Assembly: GCA_033763975.1 (NCBI GenBank)
Contig: JANRJM010000012.1
Location: 124,001 to 188,000, forward strand
From: Planctomycetota bacterium
Lineage (GTDB): Bacteria > Planctomycetota > Phycisphaerae > Phycisphaerales > UBA1924
Direction of reading: 5' to 3'
DNA: 64,000 bases
The translations under genes and the position numbers were made by a program. Shown here piece by piece: positions 26,348 through 64,000 of this stretch (the first letter of the stretch is position 1; each line of letters begins with the position of its first letter). Under the pieces are notes generated by a model that saw only the letters and a program-made list of their open reading frames with translations, was not told where the DNA came from and did no database searches.

Positions 26348-27106
26348 TCACCGCGGCGGGCGCCACCCGCTCCCGCACTCCGGGCAGCGGTCCAGGCCGG
26401 TCGTGGTGGTCATGTCGTACCCGCACACCTCGCACCGCCCCGCGTACCACCGGCGACGGCGCTTCGCCAGCAGCGGCAGCAACACCGCCGGCCCCATCAC
26501 GAACAGCCCCACCGCCCCGCACAGGCTCAGCCCCAGGTACGTCCCCGTCGCGCACACACAATCCTCGCGCCGGCGCACCAGCACGTCGAGCGGGATGATC
26601 GCCGCGGCTTCCACGATCGTTCCCATGAACAGGCGCGCCGACAGACGCTGCAGCACGCTCTCGGGCCGCCCCCGCCTGGTGAACGCGATCAGCAGGGGCG
26701 TGCTCACCAGCCACCCCGCCGCCAGCACGCCCGCGCCCGCCCACCCGATGAACTCGTCGCTGGGGTTGTTCGCCCCCACCACCACGATCACCGCGTTTCC
26801 GACGGCCAGCACCAGCCCGGTGGCGAGCGCGCCCACCAGCAGACCCGCGACGATCAGGCTCCACACGATGCCCCGCCCGTCGCCCGCGGCCCCGGGCTTG
26901 CGGATGGGCCACAGGAACAGCACGTGCAGCCCGACGAACGCCAGCGTCGTCACGATCGACGTGACGCCGCCCGTTTCGTCCAGGTTGGTCGCGGATTCCA
27001 GGTGCCACATGAACGGCATGCCGATCATGTAGCCGGCCAGCGCGATGACCACGAGGTAGAGCCCCGCAGCCACGCCGCGCCGTTTGAACACCCCCATCGT
27101 CCGCAT
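26348..27106 (-). CDS. Multi-pass membrane protein with C-terminal zinc ribbon
   Basis: 252 residues with about six hydrophobic segments (around 15-35, 55-70, 85-110, 122-142, 160-175, 195-215). The C-terminus carries CEVCGYDM and LDRCPECG, a four-Cys zinc ribbon of the short rubredoxin-like kind found on many planctomycete membrane proteins. No transport or enzyme motif is recognised. It is convergent with aat, 72 bp away, and 36 bp downstream of the TlpA-like gene on the same strand, so the two may be cotranscribed. Confidence 0.7.
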   Translation of the reverse strand: MRTMGVFKRRGVAAGLYLVVIALAGYMIGMPFMWHLESATNLDETGGVTSIVTTLAFVGLHVLFLWPIRKPGAAGDGRGIVWSLIVAGLLVGALATGLVLAVGNAVIVVVGANNPSDEFIGWAGAGVLAAGWLVSTPLLIAFTRRGRPESVLQRLSARLFMGTIVEAAAIIPLDVLVRRREDCVCATGTYLGLSLCGAVGLFVMGPAVLLPLLAKRRRRWYAGRCEVCGYDMTTTTGLDRCPECGSGWRPPR

Positions 27107-27142
27107 GCGTGCAGACTCACCCGTTCGCGCGGCGTGCGCGCC

Positions 27143-28555
27143 TCACTTCTTCGCGAGCAGGCGCTCGATGTCCTCGCTGAGCTTGGTGTCGAGGTCGTCG
27201 CTGTACCCGCGGTGCACCGACGCGACCTTGCCCTGCTGGTCGATCACGAAGAGCATCGGGTACCCGGTGACGCGGTAGTCCTGCGTGGCGCGCTCCGCGT
27301 TCAGCGCCAGGGTGTACGTGTAGCGGTTGCGCCGCATGAACCCCGCCGGGTCGGCGCGCGGGTCGTTCTCGATGTTCATGCCGATGATCTCGACGCCCTT
27401 GCCCTTGTACTGCTTGTGCACCTTCTCGATCATGGGCATGGCCTTCACGCACCAGCCGCACCACGTGCCCCAGAAGTCCAGCACCACCACCTTGCCCTGC
27501 ATGTCGGCCAGGCGCACCGGCTTGCCCGCCGGGTCCTTCAGGTCGAACGCCGGCGCGTCGTCGCCCACCGCCAGCGGGCCCGCCTTGCGCCCCGCGCGGT
27601 TCTCCGGGTCGCCCAGGATCTTCTTGCCCCCGCCCCCGGCCTCGCGCGTCTTCGCCGCCTCCGGGTCGCGGATGCGGTAGCCCTGCGGCACGGGCAGCGC
27701 GAACACCGCGTTCGCCGCCTCGCCGTCCGTCGCCACCTTCGTCAGTTCCACCACCTGCGCCGTGCCCGCGTTGAATCGCTCGATCCGGCGCGGCAGCCGA
27801 TCGCTCCGCGCGAACGCGTACCGCACGCCCGTCGGCGCGATCGCCGCGTCCTTCCTCGGCCCGGTCTTCGGCCCGGTCTTGGGCGCCGGGTCCGCCTTCG
27901 CCGGCACCGCCGGCGCCTTCGGATCGGGCACCAGCACCACGTCGCACAGCTCGCCCGCGATCGTCTCGCGGCCCTCGAACAACGCCTTGTCACCGTCCTT
28001 CCCGAACGGCTCCTCGCTCAGCAGTTCCCACGCCACCACCGGACGCGCGTGCTGCGAGCCCAGGAACGACTGCAGGTCTTCCATCTCCAGCACGGCCTTC
28101 TCGAACACGATCTTCTCGCTCGCACGCACCGCCCGCGCGTTCACCCCGTCGTACCCGATCTCGAACGCGTTCGGCGTCGGCGCGTCGCCCGTCGACGGCG
28201 TCGCTTCGCCCTTCACATACATCATCCACCCGCCCGCGTCCGCCTTCCGCACCACCACCGTCGCGGCGTACGTCGGCGACGCCTCCGCCCCGCCCGTCAC
28301 CTTCGCCTCGTACGACAGCGTGCTCACCGTTGCCAGAGCCTCGCGCGCGCCCGCGATGACCGCCTTCGCATACTCCGGCGCCGGGGGCGCCGGGGCCTTC
28401 GCCGGCGCCTTCTCCGGCTTCGCCCGCGGGGCGGCCTTCGGGGCCGCGCCCTGCGCCAGCGCCGTGCCGGCCCCCGGCCCGAGCACCACGCACGCCGCTC
28501 CGATCACCCCGGCGACGAACGCCGCGCTCCATCCCCGCGTCGTGTGTTTCGACAT
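27143..28555 (-). CDS. Secreted TlpA-like thiol:disulfide protein with N-terminal DUF2092-like domain
   Basis: 470 residues with an AGGAGG ribosome-binding site and a signal peptide (to ALAQ), followed by an Ala/Pro/Lys-rich spacer. Residues about 55-290 form a beta-rich domain resembling the lipoprotein-carrier-like DUF2092 group. The C-terminal 150 residues are a TlpA/ResA thioredoxin domain with the active site WCGWC and the cis-Pro loop in TGYPMLFVID. TlpA-like proteins reduce cytochrome c or other periplasmic disulfides; the substrate here is not known. It may help maintain the many Cys-containing secreted proteins nearby, but this is inference. Confidence 0.85.
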   Translation of the reverse strand: MSKHTTRGWSAAFVAGVIGAACVVLGPGAGTALAQGAAPKAAPRAKPEKAPAKAPAPPAPEYAKAVIAGAREALATVSTLSYEAKVTGGAEASPTYAATVVVRKADAGGWMMYVKGEATPSTGDAPTPNAFEIGYDGVNARAVRASEKIVFEKAVLEMEDLQSFLGSQHARPVVAWELLSEEPFGKDGDKALFEGRETIAGELCDVVLVPDPKAPAVPAKADPAPKTGPKTGPRKDAAIAPTGVRYAFARSDRLPRRIERFNAGTAQVVELTKVATDGEAANAVFALPVPQGYRIRDPEAAKTREAGGGGKKILGDPENRAGRKAGPLAVGDDAPAFDLKDPAGKPVRLADMQGKVVVLDFWGTWCGWCVKAMPMIEKVHKQYKGKGVEIIGMNIENDPRADPAGFMRRNRYTYTLALNAERATQDYRVTGYPMLFVIDQQGKVASVHRGYSDDLDTKLSEDIERLLAKK

Positions 28556-28715
28556 CGCGCACCCTCCTTGCCGCTGGCACCCGGGGCCCGCCCCGCCCGC
28601 CGAGAGTCAGACGGTCACGCCGCCCGGAAGTTCCGTGGGCGAGCGCGTTGACGGAAGTGTACGGGGCGGGGCATGGTCCCGCCGGGGGCACCGGGCCTCC
28701 GGGCCGCGCGACGGC

Positions 28716-30107
28716 TCAGGCGTCGATCGCGCGGACGGGGCTCGGCCCGGCGAGCGCCCGCCCGTTGCTCTCGATGACCGTGCGGTACCAGTGCGCCGAA
28801 AGTTTGAGCGTGCGTTCCTGCGAGGGAAAGTCCACGTAGATCAGCCCGAAACGCTCCTTGTACCCCTCCGCCCACTCGAAGTTGTCCATGAGCGACCAGT
28901 GGAAGTACCCCCGCACGTCCGCCCCGTCGCGGATGGCCTGGTGCAGCGCGCGCAGGTACCGGCGTGTGAAGTCGATCCGCTGCGCGTCGGGCACCTCGCC
29001 CTCGGACGTCATCCAGTCGAGGTTCGCCATGCCGTTCTCCGTGATGACCACCGGCAGGCGATAGCGCTCGAAGATGAACCGGGGCCCCCAGCGCAGCACC
29101 TCGGGCGTGACGAACCAGTTGAAACTCGTGCGCGCCGCGCCGGGCGGTGTCGGCACAGCCTCCGCCGCACCGTTCGCCCCGCGCCGCACGAGCGACCCGG
29201 AATAGATGTTCACGCCGTAGAAGTCCAGCGGCTGGCAGATCGACTCCATGTCGCCCGCGTGGATCTCCGGCAGGCTGCCCGCGTACGCGTGCAGCCCGTC
29301 CTCGGGGTAGCGCCCAAGGCACACGGGGTCGGAGAACCACGTGTTGTTCCACAGGTTCTCGCGCTTCACGCGGAACGTCTCGGCCCGGGCCGCCTCGATG
29401 GTCGCGGGGTCCTCGTCGGCGGGGCTGGCGATGTGCCCGACCGGCGCCCAGCCGACCCGCACCGGGCGCGTCGCGCCCGCGCGGATGGCCTGCGTCCCCA
29501 GGCCGTGCGCACGCAGCATGTTGTGCACGACCGTCAACTGCTCCGCGCGCGACAGCCGCACGCCCGGCGCGTGCGTTCCGTCGGCGTGCCCCAACTGCGC
29601 CACGACCTGCGGCTCGTTGATCGTCATCCAGTGCGTCACCCGGTCTGACAGGCGCGCCGCCACCCGCCCCGCGTACTCCGCGAACCACGACGCGCTCTCG
29701 CGGTTCAGCCACCCGCCCCGGTGGTACAGCGCGAGCGGGTAGTCCCAGTGAAACAGCGTCGCCCACGGCGTGATGCCCCGCGCCAACAGCCCGTCCACCA
29801 GCCGGTCGTAGAAATCCAGCCCCCGGTCGTTCACGCGCCCCAGGCCCTGCGGCACGACGCGCGGCCAGGACACCGAGAACCGGTACGCCCCCAGCCCCAT
29901 CGCCTCCATCAGCCCCAGGTCCTCGTCCAGCCGACGCACGTGATCGCACGCCACCTCGCCCGTGTGCCCGGAGTACACCGCGCCCGGGCGCGCCACGAAC
30001 GCGTCCCACACGCTCCGCCCGCGCTCCTGCTCGCCCGACGAGCCCTCGATCTGGTACGACGACGTGGCCGCTCCCCACACGAAGCCCGGCGGAAACTCGG
30101 TCGACAT
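28716..30107 (-). CDS. GH1 beta-glucosidase
   Basis: 463 residues from ATG 30107, the only start that gives the standard GH1 beginning FPPGFVWGAATSSYQIEG. Both catalytic glutamates are present: the acid/base in TINEP (about residue 165) and the nucleophile in VITENGM (about 355). There is no signal peptide, so it acts in the cytoplasm and would split imported oligosaccharides to glucose. It is the last gene of a minus-strand operon, 14 bp after the MalG-type permease. With GH17 and GH16 in the same locus, beta-1,3- or mixed-linkage glucan fragments are the likeliest substrates. Confidence 0.95.
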   Translation of the reverse strand: MSTEFPPGFVWGAATSSYQIEGSSGEQERGRSVWDAFVARPGAVYSGHTGEVACDHVRRLDEDLGLMEAMGLGAYRFSVSWPRVVPQGLGRVNDRGLDFYDRLVDGLLARGITPWATLFHWDYPLALYHRGGWLNRESASWFAEYAGRVAARLSDRVTHWMTINEPQVVAQLGHADGTHAPGVRLSRAEQLTVVHNMLRAHGLGTQAIRAGATRPVRVGWAPVGHIASPADEDPATIEAARAETFRVKRENLWNNTWFSDPVCLGRYPEDGLHAYAGSLPEIHAGDMESICQPLDFYGVNIYSGSLVRRGANGAAEAVPTPPGAARTSFNWFVTPEVLRWGPRFIFERYRLPVVITENGMANLDWMTSEGEVPDAQRIDFTRRYLRALHQAIRDGADVRGYFHWSLMDNFEWAEGYKERFGLIYVDFPSQERTLKLSAHWYRTVIESNGRALAGPSPVRAIDA

Positions 30108-30121
30108 GCGTACGCCCTTCC

Positions 30122-31000
30122 TCACCCCTTCACCGCGCCGCTCGTCAGCCCGGTGACAAAGTCCTTCTGCAGCAGCAGGAACAACGCGCCCACGGGCAGA
30201 ATCGAGGCCAGCGTGCCGGCCATCAGCAGCCCATAGTCCTGGTAATATACGTTCTTCAACTGCGCGATCATCACCGCCAGCGGCATTTTCTCCGGCGTCT
30301 GCAGCACGACCTGCGGCGACAAGAAGTTGTTCCACGTCGCCAGGAACGTCATCAGCAGGAACGCCGCCACCATCGGCTGCACCAGCGGGAACACCACCCG
30401 GAAGAACGCCCGGACCTCGCCGCACGCGTCCATCCGGGCCGCCTCCAGCAGCTCTCGGGGCACGCTCGACAGCGTCGCCTGGCGGAACAGGTAGACCCCG
30501 AACGCCGGCGCGATCGCCGGCAGGATCAGCCCCGCGTAGCTGTCCAGCAGCCCCAGCCGGTACAGCACCTGGAACCCCGGCGCGATGAGCAGGGGCGAGG
30601 GGATCACCACCGCCGCCATCACCACGTTCGACACCAGCCGCCTGCCCGCGAACTCCAGCGACGCCAGCGCGTACCCGCCCATGGCGCACACGAGCGTCGC
30701 GAGCACCGCCGTCACCGACGACAGCACCAGCGAGTTCAGCAGCGCGCGCCCCACGCCCGCCTCGCGGAACAGGCTCCGGAAGTGGTCGAGCGTCAGCCGG
30801 TCCCACGCCACGCCCAGCACCCCTTCGCCCCGCGGGAGGAACGGGTACAGCAGGAAGTCGGCGTTGCTCTTGAACGAGGCGCACACGAGCCACACGAACG
30901 GCACCGCGATGATCACCGTCGCCACGATGACCAGGATGTAGCACGCGAGCAGCCCGACGCGCCCGGCGCGCGCGTCCATCCCGTCCGATCCGCGCGTCAT
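30122..31000 (-). CDS. Carbohydrate ABC transporter permease, MalG type
   Basis: 292 residues with six transmembrane helices. The cytoplasmic coupling loop reads ELLEAARMDACGEVRAFFRVV, the EAA motif of importers. The start at 31000 overlaps the stop of the MalF-type gene by 4 bp (ATGA), showing translational coupling. It forms the membrane channel with MalF for oligosaccharide uptake powered by the MalK-type ATPase encoded upstream in the same operon. Confidence 0.95.
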   Translation of the reverse strand: MTRGSDGMDARAGRVGLLACYILVIVATVIIAVPFVWLVCASFKSNADFLLYPFLPRGEGVLGVAWDRLTLDHFRSLFREAGVGRALLNSLVLSSVTAVLATLVCAMGGYALASLEFAGRRLVSNVVMAAVVIPSPLLIAPGFQVLYRLGLLDSYAGLILPAIAPAFGVYLFRQATLSSVPRELLEAARMDACGEVRAFFRVVFPLVQPMVAAFLLMTFLATWNNFLSPQVVLQTPEKMPLAVMIAQLKNVYYQDYGLLMAGTLASILPVGALFLLLQKDFVTGLTSGAVKG

Positions 31001-58479: not shown

Positions 58480-58956
58480 CTACGCCGCCCGACGGTCCGC
58501 CGCCTCGCCCGTCGCCGGCACCCGCTCCGCCGCCCGCTGGCGGGCCCACTGCCGGTCGGTCCGCACATTGCTCGGCGCGTCGGGCGCCTCGCGCCAGTCC
58601 TCCGCCGCCGAGACCCGCACCTCCGACGCCATCGTCTTGCGGTAGCCCAGCAGCCGCACGACCTCGAGCACGTCCGTCCACGCCGGGAACGAGACCTGGT
58701 TCGAGCGCTTGAACTGCTCGATCGCCATGAGGAACAGGAACTGCTCCTTGGTGAGCCGCCCGTCCTCGGCGGCGCGAGCAAAGTCCGACAACCGCCGCCC
58801 CGGACCGCGCCGGCGTTCCATCCCGCTGGGCGGGCGCCCGTCGCCGCCAACCTGCGGGTCCAGACGCGGATCGCGCCCGGAACGGCGCTCCACCCCGTCC
58901 CAGCCGCCGCCGCGGCCCGAAGGCTCCGTGCCCATGCTGTCGTGTGTGTCGGACAT
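58480..58956 (-). CDS. Hypothetical protein with a conserved-looking helical core
   Basis: 158 residues. The first 55 are Gly/Arg/Pro-rich and probably disordered (GWDGVERRSG, GMERRRGPGRR). A compact helical core follows (about 60-115, EDGRLTKEQFLFLMAIEQFK and FPAWTDVLEVVRLLGYRK). The C-terminus is again polar. No family is recognised. 217 bp separate it from the coiled-coil gene downstream; that gap holds an imperfect hairpin near 58273-58297 and nothing else recognised. Confidence 0.6.
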   Translation of the reverse strand: MSDTHDSMGTEPSGRGGGWDGVERRSGRDPRLDPQVGGDGRPPSGMERRRGPGRRLSDFARAAEDGRLTKEQFLFLMAIEQFKRSNQVSFPAWTDVLEVVRLLGYRKTMASEVRVSAAEDWREAPDAPSNVRTDRQWARQRAAERVPATGEAADRRAA

Positions 58957-59015: not shown

Positions 59016-59327
59016 CTAGAAGTCGTCGTCGTCGTCTTCATCGTCTTCCTCGGCGTCGTCGTCGAGTTCGTCCTCGGTTTCGTCGTCGAGAAAGTCCTCG
59101 TCGTCCTCCTCAAACTCCTCACCGCCCTCAACCTCGTCATCGTCGCCGAAGACGTCCTCGTCCTCGTCGAACTCCTCTTCCTCTTCCTCTTCCATCACGA
59201 CGACCGCGGCCGACCCGACCCACGCCGCCTCGTCCTCGAGTTCCCACCCCGGCGCCGCACCCGGTCGGCACGCCGGCTCGAATGACCCGACCTCGCTCCC
59301 CGCCGCCGTCAGCACCTTCTGCACCAT
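59016..59327 (-). CDS. Small protein with extreme acidic C-terminal tail
   Basis: 103 residues from ATG 59327 (GGAAGG site; an upstream in-frame ATG at 59423 would add an Arg/Gly-rich stretch). After about 40 ordinary residues (MVQKVLTAAGSEVGSF), nearly all remaining positions are Asp or Glu, ending EDDDDDF. Acidic tails of this kind can act as nucleic-acid mimics or chaperone-like electrostatic domains, but no function can be assigned. The codon pattern of the acidic tract is low-complexity, so chance translation of a GA-rich repeat is also possible. Confidence 0.55.
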   Translation of the reverse strand: MVQKVLTAAGSEVGSFEPACRPGAAPGWELEDEAAWVGSAAVVVMEEEEEEEFDEDEDVFGDDDEVEGGEEFEEDDEDFLDDETEDELDDDAEEDDEDDDDDF

Positions 59328-59637
59328 GAAGCACCTTCCCGCGTGTGCGCGCCCGCCACAACTCCCACCACAGCCGTCACCGCCACGTTCGGTGCGACCA
59401 CGATTTCCACCCCGGCCCGCCATCCGCCCGGCTCCGTACGGGCCACTGTCCGAGACCCGCGCCGTCGCGGTTCCTTCCTCGCCGTCCCTCTCCCGATTCC
59501 GACTCCGCAGAGGACGTCCGGCTCAAAGCGGCGGTACGATACAGTCCGCGCCGGACAAGTCAATCCGGGCCCCCACCCAGCCGCCGCCAGTTCTCCACCG
59601 GTTGTCCACCGCCCCGCCACCGCCTCTCCATCCCCTC
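59328..59637. other. Intergenic region between divergent genes, nothing recognised
   Basis: 310 bp between the acidic-tail gene and the plus-strand membrane protein gene. A TACGAT box at 59535-59540 could be a -10 but has no convincing -35. Confidence 0.4.
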
Positions 59638-60147
59638 ATGAACGCTCCTTCGCCCACCATTCACCCCGCCCCCGCCTTCCGACCCGTCGGCCTCGTCGGC
59701 GCCATCATCCTCCCCGGCCTCGGGCATGTCCTCGTCGGCGAACGCCCCCGCGGGCTGTGCATCGGCGCCGGCATCCTCGCCCTCTTCTTCGGCGGCATCT
59801 TCATCGGCGGCATCGACGTCATCGACTCGCGCGAAGACCCTGTCTGGTTCTACGGCCAAGCCCTCGTCGGCCCCCTCGCCGTCGGCGTCGATCAACTCCA
59901 CCAGCACCATTTCAAGGTCATCGACCCCGTCTCCGGCGTCCTCCGCTCCGCCTATCCCTCCGAGGGACGCGACCCCGCCACACGAGACGCCACCCCCAAC
60001 GGCACGCCCCCCAACCGCAAGTCCATCGGAAAGATGAACGAGATCGGCACCCTCTTCGCCACCATCGCCGGGTTCATCAACCTCATCGCCATCATCGACG
60101 CCGCCGTGCCCGGCCCGCGTGCGCGCCCCGCTTCCGCCAACGCCTGA
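59638..60147 (+). CDS. Membrane protein, DUF6677-like
   Basis: 169 residues. The start reads FRPVGLVGAIILPGLGHVLVGERPRG, a TM2-like glycine-rich helix pair with the PGLGH turn, then ALFFGGIFIGGIDVI and a third helix near 140-155. The polar middle contains Tyr/Asp-rich loops and a basic RKSIGKMNEIG motif. Small membrane proteins of this form are annotated in planctomycetes as DUF6677; that name is from memory and should be checked. Function unknown. It is followed after 12 bp by the next small membrane protein, probably in one operon. Confidence 0.65.
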   Translation: MNAPSPTIHPAPAFRPVGLVGAIILPGLGHVLVGERPRGLCIGAGILALFFGGIFIGGIDVIDSREDPVWFYGQALVGPLAVGVDQLHQHHFKVIDPVSGVLRSAYPSEGRDPATRDATPNGTPPNRKSIGKMNEIGTLFATIAGFINLIAIIDAAVPGPRARPASANA

Positions 60148-60159
60148 TCCGTCGCCACC

Positions 60160-60408
60160 ATGCCCTCCCTCCTCGCCTATCGCCCGTTCATCGATCCCAT
60201 CGAGCTGCACGAACTCTGGTTCGTGCTCATCGTCCCGCTCGCGCTCTTCCTCTCGCTCGCGTACAAGGCCGTCCGCGTCCCCGACCTCTCGACCCTCCCG
60301 CGACAGGTCATCATCATGACCGTCCAGATCTGCTTCTGGATGGCCGCGCTCGGCCTGGCAACCTACCTCTTCGTGCAGTACGTCGCCCCCATCATCGCGC
60401 CGCGCTAG
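60160..60408 (+). CDS. Small two-helix membrane protein
   Basis: 82 residues with two hydrophobic helices (about 20-36 and 50-75). The connecting loop is KAVRVPDLSTLPRQV. It is translationally close to the upstream gene (12-bp gap). Family not recognised; the conserved-looking pairing suggests a shared membrane complex, which is inference. Confidence 0.6.
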   Translation: MPSLLAYRPFIDPIELHELWFVLIVPLALFLSLAYKAVRVPDLSTLPRQVIIMTVQICFWMAALGLATYLFVQYVAPIIAPR

Positions 60409-60440: not shown

Positions 60441-62111
60441 CTACTTCTTCAAGTAGTTGAAACTCCCCGCCCGTCCGGGCGCGTCGAGGTTCTGCACGAG
60501 GTATCGCAGCGCGTCCACCGCGTGGTCGTGCCCCTCGCCCTTCACCGGCTCGTCGCTCTCGGGGTTGTCGGTCGGGTAGTGGTACCGCTCGAGCGACGAG
60601 ATGAGCACCGCGCAGCGCTCGTGGATGAACAGCCGCGCGTCCCCCGATGCCGGCGCGAACCGCGCCCGCAGCAGGTCCAGCCCCAGGCGCAGAGGCCGTC
60701 GCGCCGCCCGCACCGCGAACCCCGCCTGCCCGAGCACCTGCAGCGCGCTCAGCCCGGTCTGGTCGTTGCGTGAACGTCCCGCCGGGTCGATCCCCACCCA
60801 CGCGGGCGGGGGCCACGCCGGCACGCCCGCGCGCGCCAGCCCGGCCTTCATCGCCCCGACGTGCTCGCCCAGCACCTGATCGCTCGCCGAGCGCTCGTCC
60901 ACCACCCAGACGCGGTCTTCCTCGTCCACGCACGCCCACAGCACGACCGTCGCCGACCGGATGCCCAGGTCCATCCCCGCGACGAACATTCCCGCCGGCG
61001 CCTCGCCCCGGAACACGTGGCGTACGGGATCGAACTCCGGGATCACCGCGTCGCTCCGCCGCGGCCTTCTGCACAGCATCTCGCTCTCCCACGTCGCCAC
61101 GCTCACGCGACGCTTCATCGCCAGCGCGTCGTCGATCCGCACGTGCCCCGCCCGCTCCGCCGGGCGCTCCTTGGCGCGCCCCGTGCACTCGTCCCACAGC
61201 GCGCACCGCCCGTCGGCCCGCTCGCACGCGTGCCGGGGCGGGCAGTGCTCCAGCACGTCCACCACGCCCCAGCGCAGCAGCCGCCGCGCGCCCGTCCGCG
61301 CCTCGGTCACCAGGCGCTGCATCATCCCGTGGGGCACGTGCATCGTGCTCAGGCACTCCACGCTCCCGCGCACCGCCACGCCGCCGCACACCGCCGAGCG
61401 CGTCACGAGCTGGGCCGCTTCCCACACCCCCGCGTCGAACAGGTCCACCTCGTCGCACCGCAGCTTGTGGACGCGCGTCCCGCGCACCGACGTCTGCGAC
61501 TGCGCCAGGATCTCCACCTCGCCCCCCGTGCGGAACGACAGCCGCTTCTCCGTCGCACGCTTCACGCACGACGCCAGCCCCGGCGAACGCGCCGGATCCA
61601 CCAGCCGCCGCAGGTGCGCGTACATCCGGCGGCTCTGCTCCAGCGAGCCCCCCAGCACACGCACCTCGATCCCCGGCTTGAACACCAGGTCCAGCACCGT
61701 CGCGATCGCCCCCAGCAGCGTCTTCCCGCTCCCGCGGCTCGCCCACACCACGCAGTCCGGCGACGACACGCCCTCGCCCGCCCCCTCGCCCGCCGGTGCG
61801 CCCGCGGAGCCGGCGCCCGGCGCCGCATCCACGAAGAACGCTTGGGCCAGGTAGTCAAACGGCGCGTCGTGCCCGCCCACGATTCCCCGGCGCGCCACGC
61901 GCACGCCCAGCACGCCCGCGATCCACGCGTGCAGCGCGTCGGGCGTGCGCGGATACTCCCACGCGTCCTGCTCGCGCAGCGCGCCGCCCTCCGGCGGCGG
62001 GCCATCCGCCGAGCCGCCCGCGGCGCGCGTGGCGCCCGTCGGCCGCGCCTCACCCGTGGTCCGAGTCGAGCCCGTCGTTCGCGTCGTGCGTCGATTCTTC
62101 GCCGCCCCCAT
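60441..62111 (-). CDS. Phage-type terminase large subunit
   Basis: 556 residues. The ATPase half has Walker A SRGSGKT (about 125-131) and Walker B LRCDEVD (217-223) with a catalytic Glu. The nuclease half has GMDLGIRSATVV (first metal Asp) and ends in GHDHAVDALRYLVQ, the conserved terminase nuclease motif. Terminases cut and pump DNA into procapsids. An Arg/Thr/Gly-rich N-terminal tail (7-35) and a Gly/Ala insert (about 97-116) are unusual. No portal, capsid or tail gene is visible in the window, though the region to the right is unseen. It is the last gene of a four-gene minus-strand cassette, 28 bp after the GNAT gene. Confidence 0.9.
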   Translation of the reverse strand: MGAAKNRRTTRTTGSTRTTGEARPTGATRAAGGSADGPPPEGGALREQDAWEYPRTPDALHAWIAGVLGVRVARRGIVGGHDAPFDYLAQAFFVDAAPGAGSAGAPAGEGAGEGVSSPDCVVWASRGSGKTLLGAIATVLDLVFKPGIEVRVLGGSLEQSRRMYAHLRRLVDPARSPGLASCVKRATEKRLSFRTGGEVEILAQSQTSVRGTRVHKLRCDEVDLFDAGVWEAAQLVTRSAVCGGVAVRGSVECLSTMHVPHGMMQRLVTEARTGARRLLRWGVVDVLEHCPPRHACERADGRCALWDECTGRAKERPAERAGHVRIDDALAMKRRVSVATWESEMLCRRPRRSDAVIPEFDPVRHVFRGEAPAGMFVAGMDLGIRSATVVLWACVDEEDRVWVVDERSASDQVLGEHVGAMKAGLARAGVPAWPPPAWVGIDPAGRSRNDQTGLSALQVLGQAGFAVRAARRPLRLGLDLLRARFAPASGDARLFIHERCAVLISSLERYHYPTDNPESDEPVKGEGHDHAVDALRYLVQNLDAPGRAGSFNYLKK

Positions 62112-62139
62112 GCGTCCCCCTCTCCTGCCCGAGTGCCCT

Positions 62140-62817
62140 CTAGCCCGCCACGAACACCGCGCGGCGCGCGGTGAGGCTCATGGCGGCGAGCGCCGTGACC
62201 TCCCACGCCGCCGCCGACATCGCCGCTCCGCGCGTGCCCTTGCCGGCCCGCGCCCAGGCGAGCGCCGCGTCGCGCAGGCCGGCGCGGGCCGCCAGCGCGC
62301 GCACGCGGCGCGCGTCGGCGAACCGCCACGGCGCCACGCCCGCGCGTCGGAACGCGGTCCGCAGCGCGCGCTCGCGCGCCGGGGCCCGCGCCCGCACCCG
62401 GCGCATCCCGGCGCGCTCGAAGATCGGCGCGTACCGGCCCATCGCGGCGATCGCCTCGGTCCGGCGCGTCAGGGGCGAGGCCAGATACGCCCGCACGAGC
62501 GACACGCCCACGCCCAGCCCCCGCCACGCCGGCGACACCAGCACCCGCGAGATCGTGCGGACCTCGCGGTTGAGCGCCCGGGCCGCCCGCGCGCGCCCGC
62601 CCCGCGGCTCGTACCGCTCGCCCCACGCGCTCCTTCGCCACGTCGAGTTCAGCGTCGGCATCGACACCACCAGCACGCCGGCGAGTTCGCCCGAGCGCAC
62701 GCACCGGGCGGCGAGGATGCACGCGGCGGTCGCCGGGCGCTGCCCCAGGTAGTGCGTCTCCGCCAGGCGCTCGTAGTCGCGCCACGTGCCCGGCCCGATC
62801 GCGAGCGCGCCCGTCAC
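62140..62817 (-). CDS. GNAT-fold acetyltransferase-like protein
   Basis: 225 residues from GTG 62817, which overlaps the stop of the ATPase gene by 4 bp (GTGA). The acetyl-CoA loop is seen in RTISRVLVSPAWRGLGVG. AAMGRYAPIFERAGMRRV further on matches the acetyltransferase part of the archaeal COG2401 fusion proteins (ABC-type ATPase joined to a predicted acetyltransferase). Here ATPase and GNAT parts are separate but coupled genes. The tail is Ala/Arg-rich. Substrate unknown; modification of DNA, RNA or a packaging protein are all conceivable. The GTG start and identity are well supported by the overlap. Confidence 0.8.
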   Translation of the reverse strand: MTGALAIGPGTWRDYERLAETHYLGQRPATAACILAARCVRSGELAGVLVVSMPTLNSTWRRSAWGERYEPRGGRARAARALNREVRTISRVLVSPAWRGLGVGVSLVRAYLASPLTRRTEAIAAMGRYAPIFERAGMRRVRARAPARERALRTAFRRAGVAPWRFADARRVRALAARAGLRDAALAWARAGKGTRGAAMSAAAWEVTALAAMSLTARRAVFVAG

Positions 62818-63506
62818 GCCCCGCCCCCGCGCTCGATGTGCACCGTCGTCCCCGAGCGCCCCCGCGCGCAGCGCACGCGCACGTCGGGCGCGAGGGGCCC
62901 GCGGAGGTCGTCGTGCGCGGTGGCGACGACGACGCGCACGCCGGTGCGGGTCGCCCAGCGGCGGACGCCCGCGCCGACGCGGGCCGCCGACGCCCGGTCG
63001 AGCGTCGACGCGAACTCGTCGAGCAGCAGCAGGTGCCCGGGGGCGCCCGGGCGGACGCGCGCCAACGCCGCGGCGAGCGCGACGCGGGCCCGCTCGCCCT
63101 CGGAGAGTTCGCCGGGCGTGCGCGCCAGCACGCCGACATCGCCCAGGCCGGCCCGCACGAGGCAGGCGATGGCCTCGCCGAGCGAGCCGGGGATGAGGTC
63201 GATGACGCAGCGGGCGCGCTCGACGGGCCGCTGCCCGCAGACGCGCAGGCCCGCGTCCCGGGCGGCACGGGCGACCGCGCGCAGCAGCGTGGACTTCCCC
63301 GACCCGCTGGGGCCCGAGACGAGGACGACCTCGCCGGGGCGCAGAGACGCGAGCAGACGCCGGGCGTCGTCGTGCAGCGTGCGGCTCAGGTCGGCGGGGC
63401 GCACGCGGCGCACGCACACGCCCAGCGCGGCGCACGCGCGCAGCAGGCGCTCGGTGGGGACGACGCTCGCGGGCAGCACGCGGAGCAGCGCACGCGCGTC
63501 GTTCAC
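62814..63506 (-). CDS. ABC-type ATPase, soluble (COG2401-like ATPase half)
   Basis: 230 residues from GTG 63506, with GGGAGGTG upstream. Walker A GPSGSGKS (65-72), signature LSEGE (134-138), Walker B LLLLDEF (159-165) and switch His 198 are complete. Between Walker A and the signature, VIDLIPGSLGEAIACLVRAGLGDVGVLAR resembles the diagnostic 'VID-L...EA..LL..AGL' stretch of COG2401 rather than a transporter Q-loop region. There is no transmembrane partner. The start overlaps the helix-turn-helix gene by 4 bp and the end overlaps the GNAT gene by 4 bp. Confidence 0.85.
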   Translation of the reverse strand: MNDARALLRVLPASVVPTERLLRACAALGVCVRRVRPADLSRTLHDDARRLLASLRPGEVVLVSGPSGSGKSTLLRAVARAARDAGLRVCGQRPVERARCVIDLIPGSLGEAIACLVRAGLGDVGVLARTPGELSEGERARVALAAALARVRPGAPGHLLLLDEFASTLDRASAARVGAGVRRWATRTGVRVVVATAHDDLRGPLAPDVRVRCARGRSGTTVHIERGGGA

Positions 63507-64000
63507 GCGGCACCTCCCACGCGGCGCGGGGCCCGCGGCAACGCCGGCGCGCCCCGGGACGCGTCGACGCCCGCGGGCGGCACGGGCGCCGTTCCGACTC
63601 GACCGCCGATGCTCTCCACCAGCGCGAGCACCGCGTCGCGCTGGCGACGCACGGCGTGCTGCGTGATGCCCAGTTCGGCGGCGGCCTCTCGCACCGAGCG
63701 CCCGCGCAGGAAGATGGCCCGCGCCACCGCCCGGCGCGAGGTGGGCCACGCGCTCTGCTGGCGGAGCACGAAGCCGAACTCGGGCGCGACCACCAGGGCC
63801 GTCAGGCGGCGCAGACGCCGGCGCAGCGTGCGGGCCTGGCGCGGCTCGCCCATGAGCCGAGCGAGGTCCGCGCAGGTGTGCCCGTGGACGTAGACGCCTT
63901 CGAGGATGGCGCGGTCGCGCGGCTCGAGGTATCCCGCGGCGAGGCGGGCCGCGTCGGCGAGACGGGCGCGTTCGGCCGCACGTCGATCCGACCCGGCGCG
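63503..64000 (-). CDS. Helix-turn-helix protein with two sigma-4-like repeats (N-terminus beyond window)
   Basis: 165 codons are visible and the frame is open to the right edge. Two sigma-region-4-like helix-turn-helix units are seen: LEPRDRAILEGVYVHGHTCADLARLMG and RAIFLRGRSVREAAAELGITQHAVRRQRDAVL. The C-terminus is Pro/Arg-rich. This layout fits a phage-type or sigma-like DNA-binding protein, possibly the terminase small subunit or a regulator. A shorter reading from ATG 63853 would remove the first helix-turn-helix and is less likely. The stop overlaps the ATPase start (GTGA). Confidence 0.65.
   Translation of the reverse strand, partial: RAGSDRRAAERARLADAARLAAGYLEPRDRAILEGVYVHGHTCADLARLMGEPRQARTLRRRLRRLTALVVAPEFGFVLRQQSAWPTSRRAVARAIFLRGRSVREAAAELGITQHAVRRQRDAVLALVESIGGRVGTAPVPPAGVDASRGAPALPRAPRRVGGAA

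Follow-up and report, generated by a model that had tools for sequence, protein, structure and literature searches.

A terminase operon with an ABC ATPase–GNAT pair as the probable packaging locus of a dispersed gene transfer agent in Phycisphaerales

The subject of this study is a four-gene operon at the end of a 64,000-nucleotide stretch of DNA (the window) from a planctomycete of the order Phycisphaerales (assembly GCA_033763975.1, contig JANRJM010000012.1). The operon encodes a sigma-like DNA-binding protein, a soluble ABC-type ATPase, a GNAT-fold protein and the large subunit of a phage terminase (TerL). We consider it probable (about 0.72) that this cassette serves as the packaging locus of a gene transfer agent (GTA) that is host-encoded, is inherited vertically and has its genes distributed over at least two chromosomal loci. 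The original prediction, made from the letters of the window, had offered a GTA, a domesticated prophage remnant or a DNA-modification step tied to packaging; the GTA is the best supported of the three, and portal and capsid genes are present at a second locus of the same genome.

The packaging operon

The window is part of contig C12, positions 124001-188000 of 189,689, and 1,689 bases of the contig remain beyond it. The operon lies on the minus strand and is transcribed in the order sigma-like protein, ABC ATPase, GNAT, TerL. Its features are listed below, with lengths in amino acids (aa).

60441..62111, minus strand: TerL, 556 aa; packaging ATPase and RNase H-like nuclease with conserved cysteines in between; phrog_2, E 8.6e-14
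62140..62817, minus strand: GNAT-fold protein, 225 aa; phrog_886 (a phage family), E 2.6e-10
62814..62817, minus strand: GTGA start/stop overlap, ABC to GNAT; read from the sequence
62814..63506, minus strand: soluble ABC-type ATPase, 230 aa; ABC_tran, E 3.4e-11; phrog_293, E 2e-21; phrog_11143, E 3e-17
63503..63506, minus strand: GTGA start/stop overlap, sigma-like to ABC; read from the sequence
63503..64000 (the part in the window), minus strand: double sigma-70 region-4-like DNA-binding protein; Sigma70_r4, E 2.3e-8, in two stretches

All four minus-strand genes named in the original prediction (double helix-turn-helix protein, ABC ATPase, GNAT and terminase large subunit) are present. The GTGA overlaps ascribed to them hold for two of the three junctions; GNAT and TerL are separated by a gap of about 28 nucleotides (nt). 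The frame of the sigma-like gene starts at about 64114, outside the window (full frame L001:3504-4115). TerL also gives two Pfam matches below the cut-off, Terminase_6C (21.0 of 22.6 bits, E 3.5e-4) and Terminase_6N (15.4 of 22 bits). Its motifs are intact: by regular expression over 61 loci, Walker A is found in 60, RCDE in 61 and DHxxDA[LM]RY in 60, and the invariant cysteines are present in the alignment (A3). The same approach applied to the ABC ATPase of 64 loci recovered LSxG[QE] in 62 and Walker A in 55. For the third protein, the AF2 model has a pLDDT of 86.5 and the best solved GNAT structures score Z 12-13 (top Z 13.3 over 127 residues, rmsd 3.0); the GNAT fold is supported by this good model, but a fold says nothing on function. 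The original prediction likened the ABC and GNAT proteins to the two halves of the archaeal COG2401 fusion. Phrog_11143 matches the GNAT weakly (E 0.07) as well as the ABC ATPase, and in one phage record the label 'MK0520 protein, ABC-type ATPase fused to a predicted acetyltransferase domain' is given to the GNAT.

Spread and variation of the operon

Counts were made in 201 genomes of the source order. GNAT was found in 105 of these and TerL in 119, of which 110 strong matches (E 1e-33 or better) were kept; the nine weaker or fragmentary ones dropped were in G031, G043, G052, G103, G112, G133, G136, G166 and G199. The two genes occur together in 103 genomes, and in 101 of them GNAT is upstream of TerL on the same strand and contig, at a distance of 66-4,886 nt; in the remaining two they are on separate contigs. 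TerL is found alone in seven genomes (G015, G038, G088, G116, G151, G164 and G172) and GNAT alone in two (G133 and G142). Within the source family (f1; 68 genomes), TerL was found in 66 and GNAT in 63, and as a rule there is one operon copy per genome. The gene order sigma-like, ABC, GNAT, TerL recurs within the source order and in other orders of the class, a recurrence that places the operon far beyond chance.

Families differ in what is added to this core. ParB-like and TerS-like proteins are encoded in all sampled loci of f4, f5 and f6, between GNAT and TerL where this was read, while in f1 ParB occurs in no locus and TerS in L055 only; the sole f2 locus (L056) has TerS only. The identity of the TerS-like protein is inferred from its position, its helix-turn-helix and a long helix; it has no phrog or Pfam match, and its model (pLDDT 74) gave as best structure the phage protein phBC6A51 (Z 5.2, rmsd 5.4). 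In three loci from other orders of the class (L075, L078 and L079), TerL is separated from the GNAT or TerS gene by rpiB; the assignment to the ribose 5-phosphate isomerase B family rests on PF02502 in two scanned loci (E 2e-56 and 3e-59) and on BLAST in the third. Decay of the operon is seen in individual genomes. In G164 an internal deletion joins the sigma-like gene to TerL, with loss of ABC and GNAT, and in G011 TerL has an in-frame stop. Genus g120 (G352 and G449) has the sigma-like, ABC, GNAT, portal and capsid genes, the ABC of G352 being split over two frames.

Portal and capsid at a second locus

No structural gene was recognised in the 1,689 bases past the window, and in relatives none adjoins the operon either. 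A complete adjacent prophage is rejected: portal and capsid matches lie elsewhere, the nearest about 9 kb off (G010 and G513). Of 28 genomes chosen because they carry the operon, 27 have an SPP1-type portal (PF05133), always as a single gene; the portal profile also gave a match in 2 of 14 control genomes. Nineteen portal loci were fetched, including that of the source genome. They contain the portal (19 loci), a capsid gene within a few kb of it (18), a family of about 228 aa (15) and a scaffold-like protein (14); in L149 and L151 the capsid is represented only by the first piece of an interrupted gene. The capsid belongs to SU10_MCP (PF17236; E 2.5e-91 in G061 and 2.6e-90 in the source genome) and also matches phrog_1328. 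In the source genome this second locus is on the minus strand of contig C10, with the portal frame at 28700-30229 and the capsid at 26868-28040.

Other shell types were tried and set aside. HK97-type families exceeded the cut-off sporadically and never in the source genome (portal PF04860 in 5/40 genomes, capsid PF05065 in 4/40, protease PF04586 in 4/28). The nickie-type portal phrog_145 was found in one of 40 genomes (G210 only) and the nickie-type capsid phrog_212 in none of 28, the latter a weak negative as no control gave a match. These negatives had suggested a motor without a capsid, a reading overturned by PF05133 in 27 of 28 genomes.

The two loci occur together. In the 201 genomes, 102 have both capsid and TerL, 8 TerL only, 8 capsid only and 83 neither (Fisher p 5e-37); outside f1 the tally is 36/8/7/82 (p 8e-18), and in both cases the test ignores relatedness. 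Three of the 110 capsid matches are weak (G079, G100 and G110). On 44 shared contigs, tabulated by hand, capsid and TerL are 9-648 kb apart with a median of about 40 kb, 37 of them within 100 kb, in genomes of 3-5 Mb. In G513, which belongs to another order, is one of the 28 operon genomes and had its operon read as well, the distance is about 9 kb. Among genomes of the wider class with GNAT, all ten have the capsid. Protein distances are correlated in 12 genomes, at 0.84 for capsid and TerL and 0.915 for portal and TerL (0/2000 permutations), as any two vertically inherited genes would be. Left out of the 19 for this comparison were G012, G050 and G513 (one sequence lacking), G033 and G143 (capsid interrupted) and G049 and G055 (TerL match split).

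Inheritance and selection

The TerL tree of 61 loci requires seven changes for eight families, the minimum possible. Families f1, f4 and f5 each form one clade (support 98/96, 99/93 and 99/99), and all twelve genera with at least two rows are clades, as read from the drawn tree; in the capsid tree (16 rows), f1 is likewise one clade (88/87). Selection is purifying. For TerL, dN/dS is 0.06-0.21 (11 pairs) and for the other operon genes 0.07-0.35, the exceptions being two saturated pairs and, in the sigma-like protein, short stretches of 17 and 33 codons with values of 1.0 and 0.7. The second locus gives 0.09-0.15 for the capsid (four pairs) and 0.11-0.26 for the portal (three pairs, a fourth saturated). 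Of the description 'domesticated prophage remnant', the first word is supported; the last is not, given the vertical inheritance of these genes and the purifying selection on them.

Host genes beside the operon are conserved as well. They were compared with 66 other loci and are as follows.

60160..60408, plus strand: conserved host neighbour, 82 aa; in 22/66 other loci (f1, f4 and f5), downstream of TerL in 20
59326..60147, plus strand: conserved host neighbour, DUF6677 protein (PF20382, E 1.6e-14); in 21/66 other loci, downstream of TerL in 19
58480..58956, minus strand: conserved host neighbour, 158 aa, with no Pfam match; in 20/66 other loci, downstream of TerL in 18

The 82-aa gene is, judging by its conserved position, a marker of a fixed chromosomal site; in L129 and L054 the neighbours are found on the other side, the 82-aa gene about 4.1 kb upstream of TerL.

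Control of the operon

Upstream of the operon and just past the window edge is a divergent gene for a repressor with a helix-turn-helix and a Peptidase_S24 domain. The serine and lysine motifs of the peptidase are kept in all 44 repressors scored, and a cleavage-like AGYP motif in 33 of them. The regions between repressor and operon contain ATACCA[AT]AC or its complement in 21 of 44 cases (shuffle mean 0.1) and GTTCA-N0-12-TGAAC in 12 of 44 (shuffle mean 0.2). The latter motif was found upstream of the portal in 1 of 19 regions. Within these 19 regions, no operator common to both loci was found. In L119, a spacer of about 3.9 kb separates the repressor from the sigma-like gene and by eye contains foreign genes, one of them transposase-like.

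Relatives in phages and in the literature

The GNAT of the window gave no match when compared with phages; the bridge was a viral GNAT (L066), which as a query retrieved 30 phage records, including SSU5, nickie and Rhizobium phages. The start of the L066 frame resembles the end of an ABC ATPase by eye, a likeness that the ABC profile did not confirm, and on the viral contig L067 GNAT is directly ahead of the ATPase part of TerL. Pseudomonas phage nickie, Rhizobium phage RHph_Y2_11, Salmonella phage SSU5 and Escherichia phage Cyrano share an order of ParB-like gene(s), ABC ATPase, in some cases small genes, and GNAT. Past GNAT, nickie and RHph_Y2_11 continue with small genes, TerL, portal, one gene and capsid; for SSU5 and Cyrano the stretch read stops before any TerL. 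Profiles built from the present loci match the four phages (ABC E 2e-48 to 7e-54, GNAT E 1e-12 to 1e-18), and the TerL profile matches nickie and RHph_Y2_11 (E 3e-27 and 2e-26). The coupling of this pair to a terminase is thus an existing phage arrangement, present in nickie and Rhizobium phages, and not unique to this locus. In these phages the module is part of the viral genome; in the bacteria studied here it sits in the host chromosome, at a distance from the genes for the shell.

The nickie GNAT aligns with the GNAT profile at a probability of 98, and its only PHROG match is phrog_886 (E 1e-130). This family is named 'ABC transporter ATP-binding subunit', yet its nickie member aligns with GNAT; the name looks like an annotation error derived from the MK0520 fusion. 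The nearest phage relative of the capsid is annotated as a phage capsid in Sporosarcina phage Lietuvens (33.5% identity, E 3e-45, 94% of the query covered). It is of the same SU10 type (PF17236), the copy studied here being chromosomal and vertically inherited. A scan of IMG/VR with six short peptide patterns of the capsid found no relative. Among TerL relatives in IMG/VR (L033-L045), 10 of 13 contigs encode the nuclease domain in a gene of its own, which lies upstream of that for the ATPase and on the same strand; L039, L041 and L044 have the ATPase part only, and L034, L037 and L038 a second nuclease-only frame.

The pair is also found further afield, in some loci as one frame. In family f30, ABC-GNAT is a single frame ahead of TerL in three loci (L082, L083 and L091), and the SU10 capsid is present. 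In f32 (L084-L089, L092 and L093), ABC-GNAT is followed by a conserved gene in 8/8 loci, with ParB matches in four; in the two scanned, this gene is a TerL from a different family (phrog_9), and the 55 genomes with the capsid include none from f32. Family f32 is perhaps a second, independent domestication. Locus L081 (G210) has ABC-GNAT in one frame with a ParB match and a nickie-type portal (phrog_145, E 2e-66), and is perhaps a real prophage of the nickie kind in the same phylum.

PMC7824862 relates that an earlier study (Iyer et al. 2013) predicted an uncharacterised acyl modification of a DNA base by a GNAT coupled with an ABC ATPase; a base-acylation role for such a pair is therefore already published as a prediction. 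That system combines the same two domains in jumbo phages (Tenacibaculum phage pT24, for example). In the genomes studied here, the pair has become a fixed part of the chromosome beside a terminase, and the likeness is one of domain description.

Among GTAs, the closest known system is that of Rhodobacter capsulatus and its relatives (RcGTA); in R. capsulatus, according to PMC7947584, its genes are spread over at least five loci. Both systems have a host-encoded TerL and structural genes, several loci and host regulation. In RcGTA, as described in that paper, one 17-gene head-tail cluster also serves packaging, whereas here TerL is in a separate operon with ABC, GNAT and regulators, the portal is SPP1-type, the capsid is SU10-type and tail genes are not recognised. 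Planctomycetes are mentioned twice in the same paper, for a predicted prophage of Zavarzinella formosa and not for this locus. In literature searches, which left most subscription papers outside, none of the titles and abstract openings listed concerned this locus.

Weighing the explanations

Several observations weigh against a GTA encoded in two places. No tail, lysis or adsorption genes were recognised, and the genes scanned after the capsid had no informative family match. The motif ATACCA[AT]AC is absent from all 19 regions upstream of the portal, though found in 21/44 at the packaging operon. Some genomes break the association: the sets of eight with TerL and no capsid and eight with the reverse include some fragmented drafts, G025 has the operon with neither SPP1 portal nor SU10 capsid, G012 has a short portal frame (381 aa) with the capsid about 69 kb away from it, and in g120 no TerL was found in G352:C66:1-49900 or G449:C12:62000-95156, the 33-50 kb that surround the GNAT, portal and capsid genes. 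Neither tree recovers f6 as one clade; in that of TerL, g73 groups with f2 (85/90), although its two rows cover just 11% of the columns. TerL, GNAT and capsid each have their nearest match in a different phage, so that the gene set is a mosaic. Kinship of the GNAT with Mom of phage Mu has no sequence support: comparison with a single Mom sequence gave an hhalign probability of 0.2. In fold, the model matched 8bv8 at Z 11.8 (rmsd 3.1, 136 residues), tied with many other GNATs.

A virus-like particle other than a GTA, likewise vertically inherited, with motor and capsid kept for a job such as a DNA-damage response, phage interference or DNA storage, would have the same genomic evidence behind it. 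Such a particle would fit a gene set without recognised tail genes and an S24 repressor that suggests damage control. However, TerL has kept its motifs in 60-61 of 61 loci and the distances of portal and capsid correlate with those of TerL, which together suggest real DNA packaging; no evidence for a defence role turned up, the padloc library not having been searched, and we consider this explanation unlikely. The remnant of a defective prophage, fragmented by rearrangement and in slow decay, would account for loci in pieces and for the decay seen in G164 and G011. It is largely refuted, and very unlikely in our estimation: dN/dS is well below 1 in nearly all pairs, the operon is usually single-copy and vertically inherited, the same host neighbours recur in three families, and rpiB is inside the operon in three loci from other orders of the class.

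The divergent repressor beside a terminase operon with no capsid adjoining also recalls a PICI-like phage satellite, which packages itself into helper-phage capsids. Inheritance here is vertical, however, as seen in the TerL tree and in the fixed neighbours of three families, and the host itself encodes portal and capsid; the chance of a satellite is accordingly slight. Equally unlikely is that the two loci are unrelated domesticated elements, co-occurring from shared ancestry only, although they are usually tens of kb apart, share no motif that was found and have different nearest phages, and neither the Fisher test nor the distance correlation removes relatedness. Against this, co-occurrence persists outside f1, the median distance is about 40 kb in genomes of 3-5 Mb, and neither locus alone could build a packaging particle.

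The proposed gene transfer agent

The gene content suggests how a GTA of this kind may work. At the first locus, the S24-type repressor would keep the divergent operon off until inactivated by DNA damage, which would place the system under SOS control, and the sigma-region-4-like protein is the presumed activator. Expression would yield the sigma-like protein, ABC ATPase, GNAT and TerL, to which several families would add the ParB-like protein and the TerS-like helix-turn-helix protein. The second locus would supply the SPP1-type portal, a scaffold-like protein, the SU10-type major capsid protein and small unassigned genes. Once particles had formed, TerL would dock on the portal and fill the capsid with random fragments of host DNA. 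The ABC-GNAT pair may act on DNA at or before packaging, most likely as a base acylase, as predicted for the phage pair.

An element within the capsid gene

In six genomes of f1, f2 and f6 (G033, G143, G164, G122, G097 and G128; L155-L160), an insert of 10.5-11.6 kb divides the capsid gene near residue 57, the insertion point being identical within a few codons. In G033 the annotated insert encodes a serine recombinase (PF00239 and PF07508), an AAA_25 ATPase, a sigma-region-2-like protein and a 649-aa protein that ends in a phage capsid domain (PF25209, E 3e-40); frames like its recombinase, AAA_25 and capsid frames are present in all five other inserts. Split capsid copies are also found in G192, G151, G558 (on separate contigs), G015 and G088. 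No tRNA was found in L001 or L155. The inserts of G033 (f2) and G143 (f1) are 86% identical over 3.9 kb and the second capsid pieces 74%, and on these figures the element of about 11 kb seems to be mobile. G164 has both an insert and the deleted operon, as expected, in this one genome, if the two loci serve one particle.

Implications

To our knowledge, GTAs are known from few lineages only. Beyond the GTA itself, a broader scenario is put forward tentatively, as possible rather than probable. The loci may represent a new lineage of GTAs that predates the divergence of the orders in the class and is possibly shared with another class (f30, with its ABC-GNAT fusion, TerL and the same capsid family); the packaging module may acylate DNA to mark or protect the cargo; and the capsid gene may be the attachment site of capsid-encoding serine-recombinase elements of about 11 kb that parasitise or silence the GTA.

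If the proposal is true, a GTA kept vertically across the orders of another class would make this kind of gene exchange both older and more common than has been assumed. With its motor and shell in separate loci, such a GTA could also escape searches that expect one cluster. The enigmatic ABC-GNAT pair, for its part, gains a testable setting in DNA packaging.

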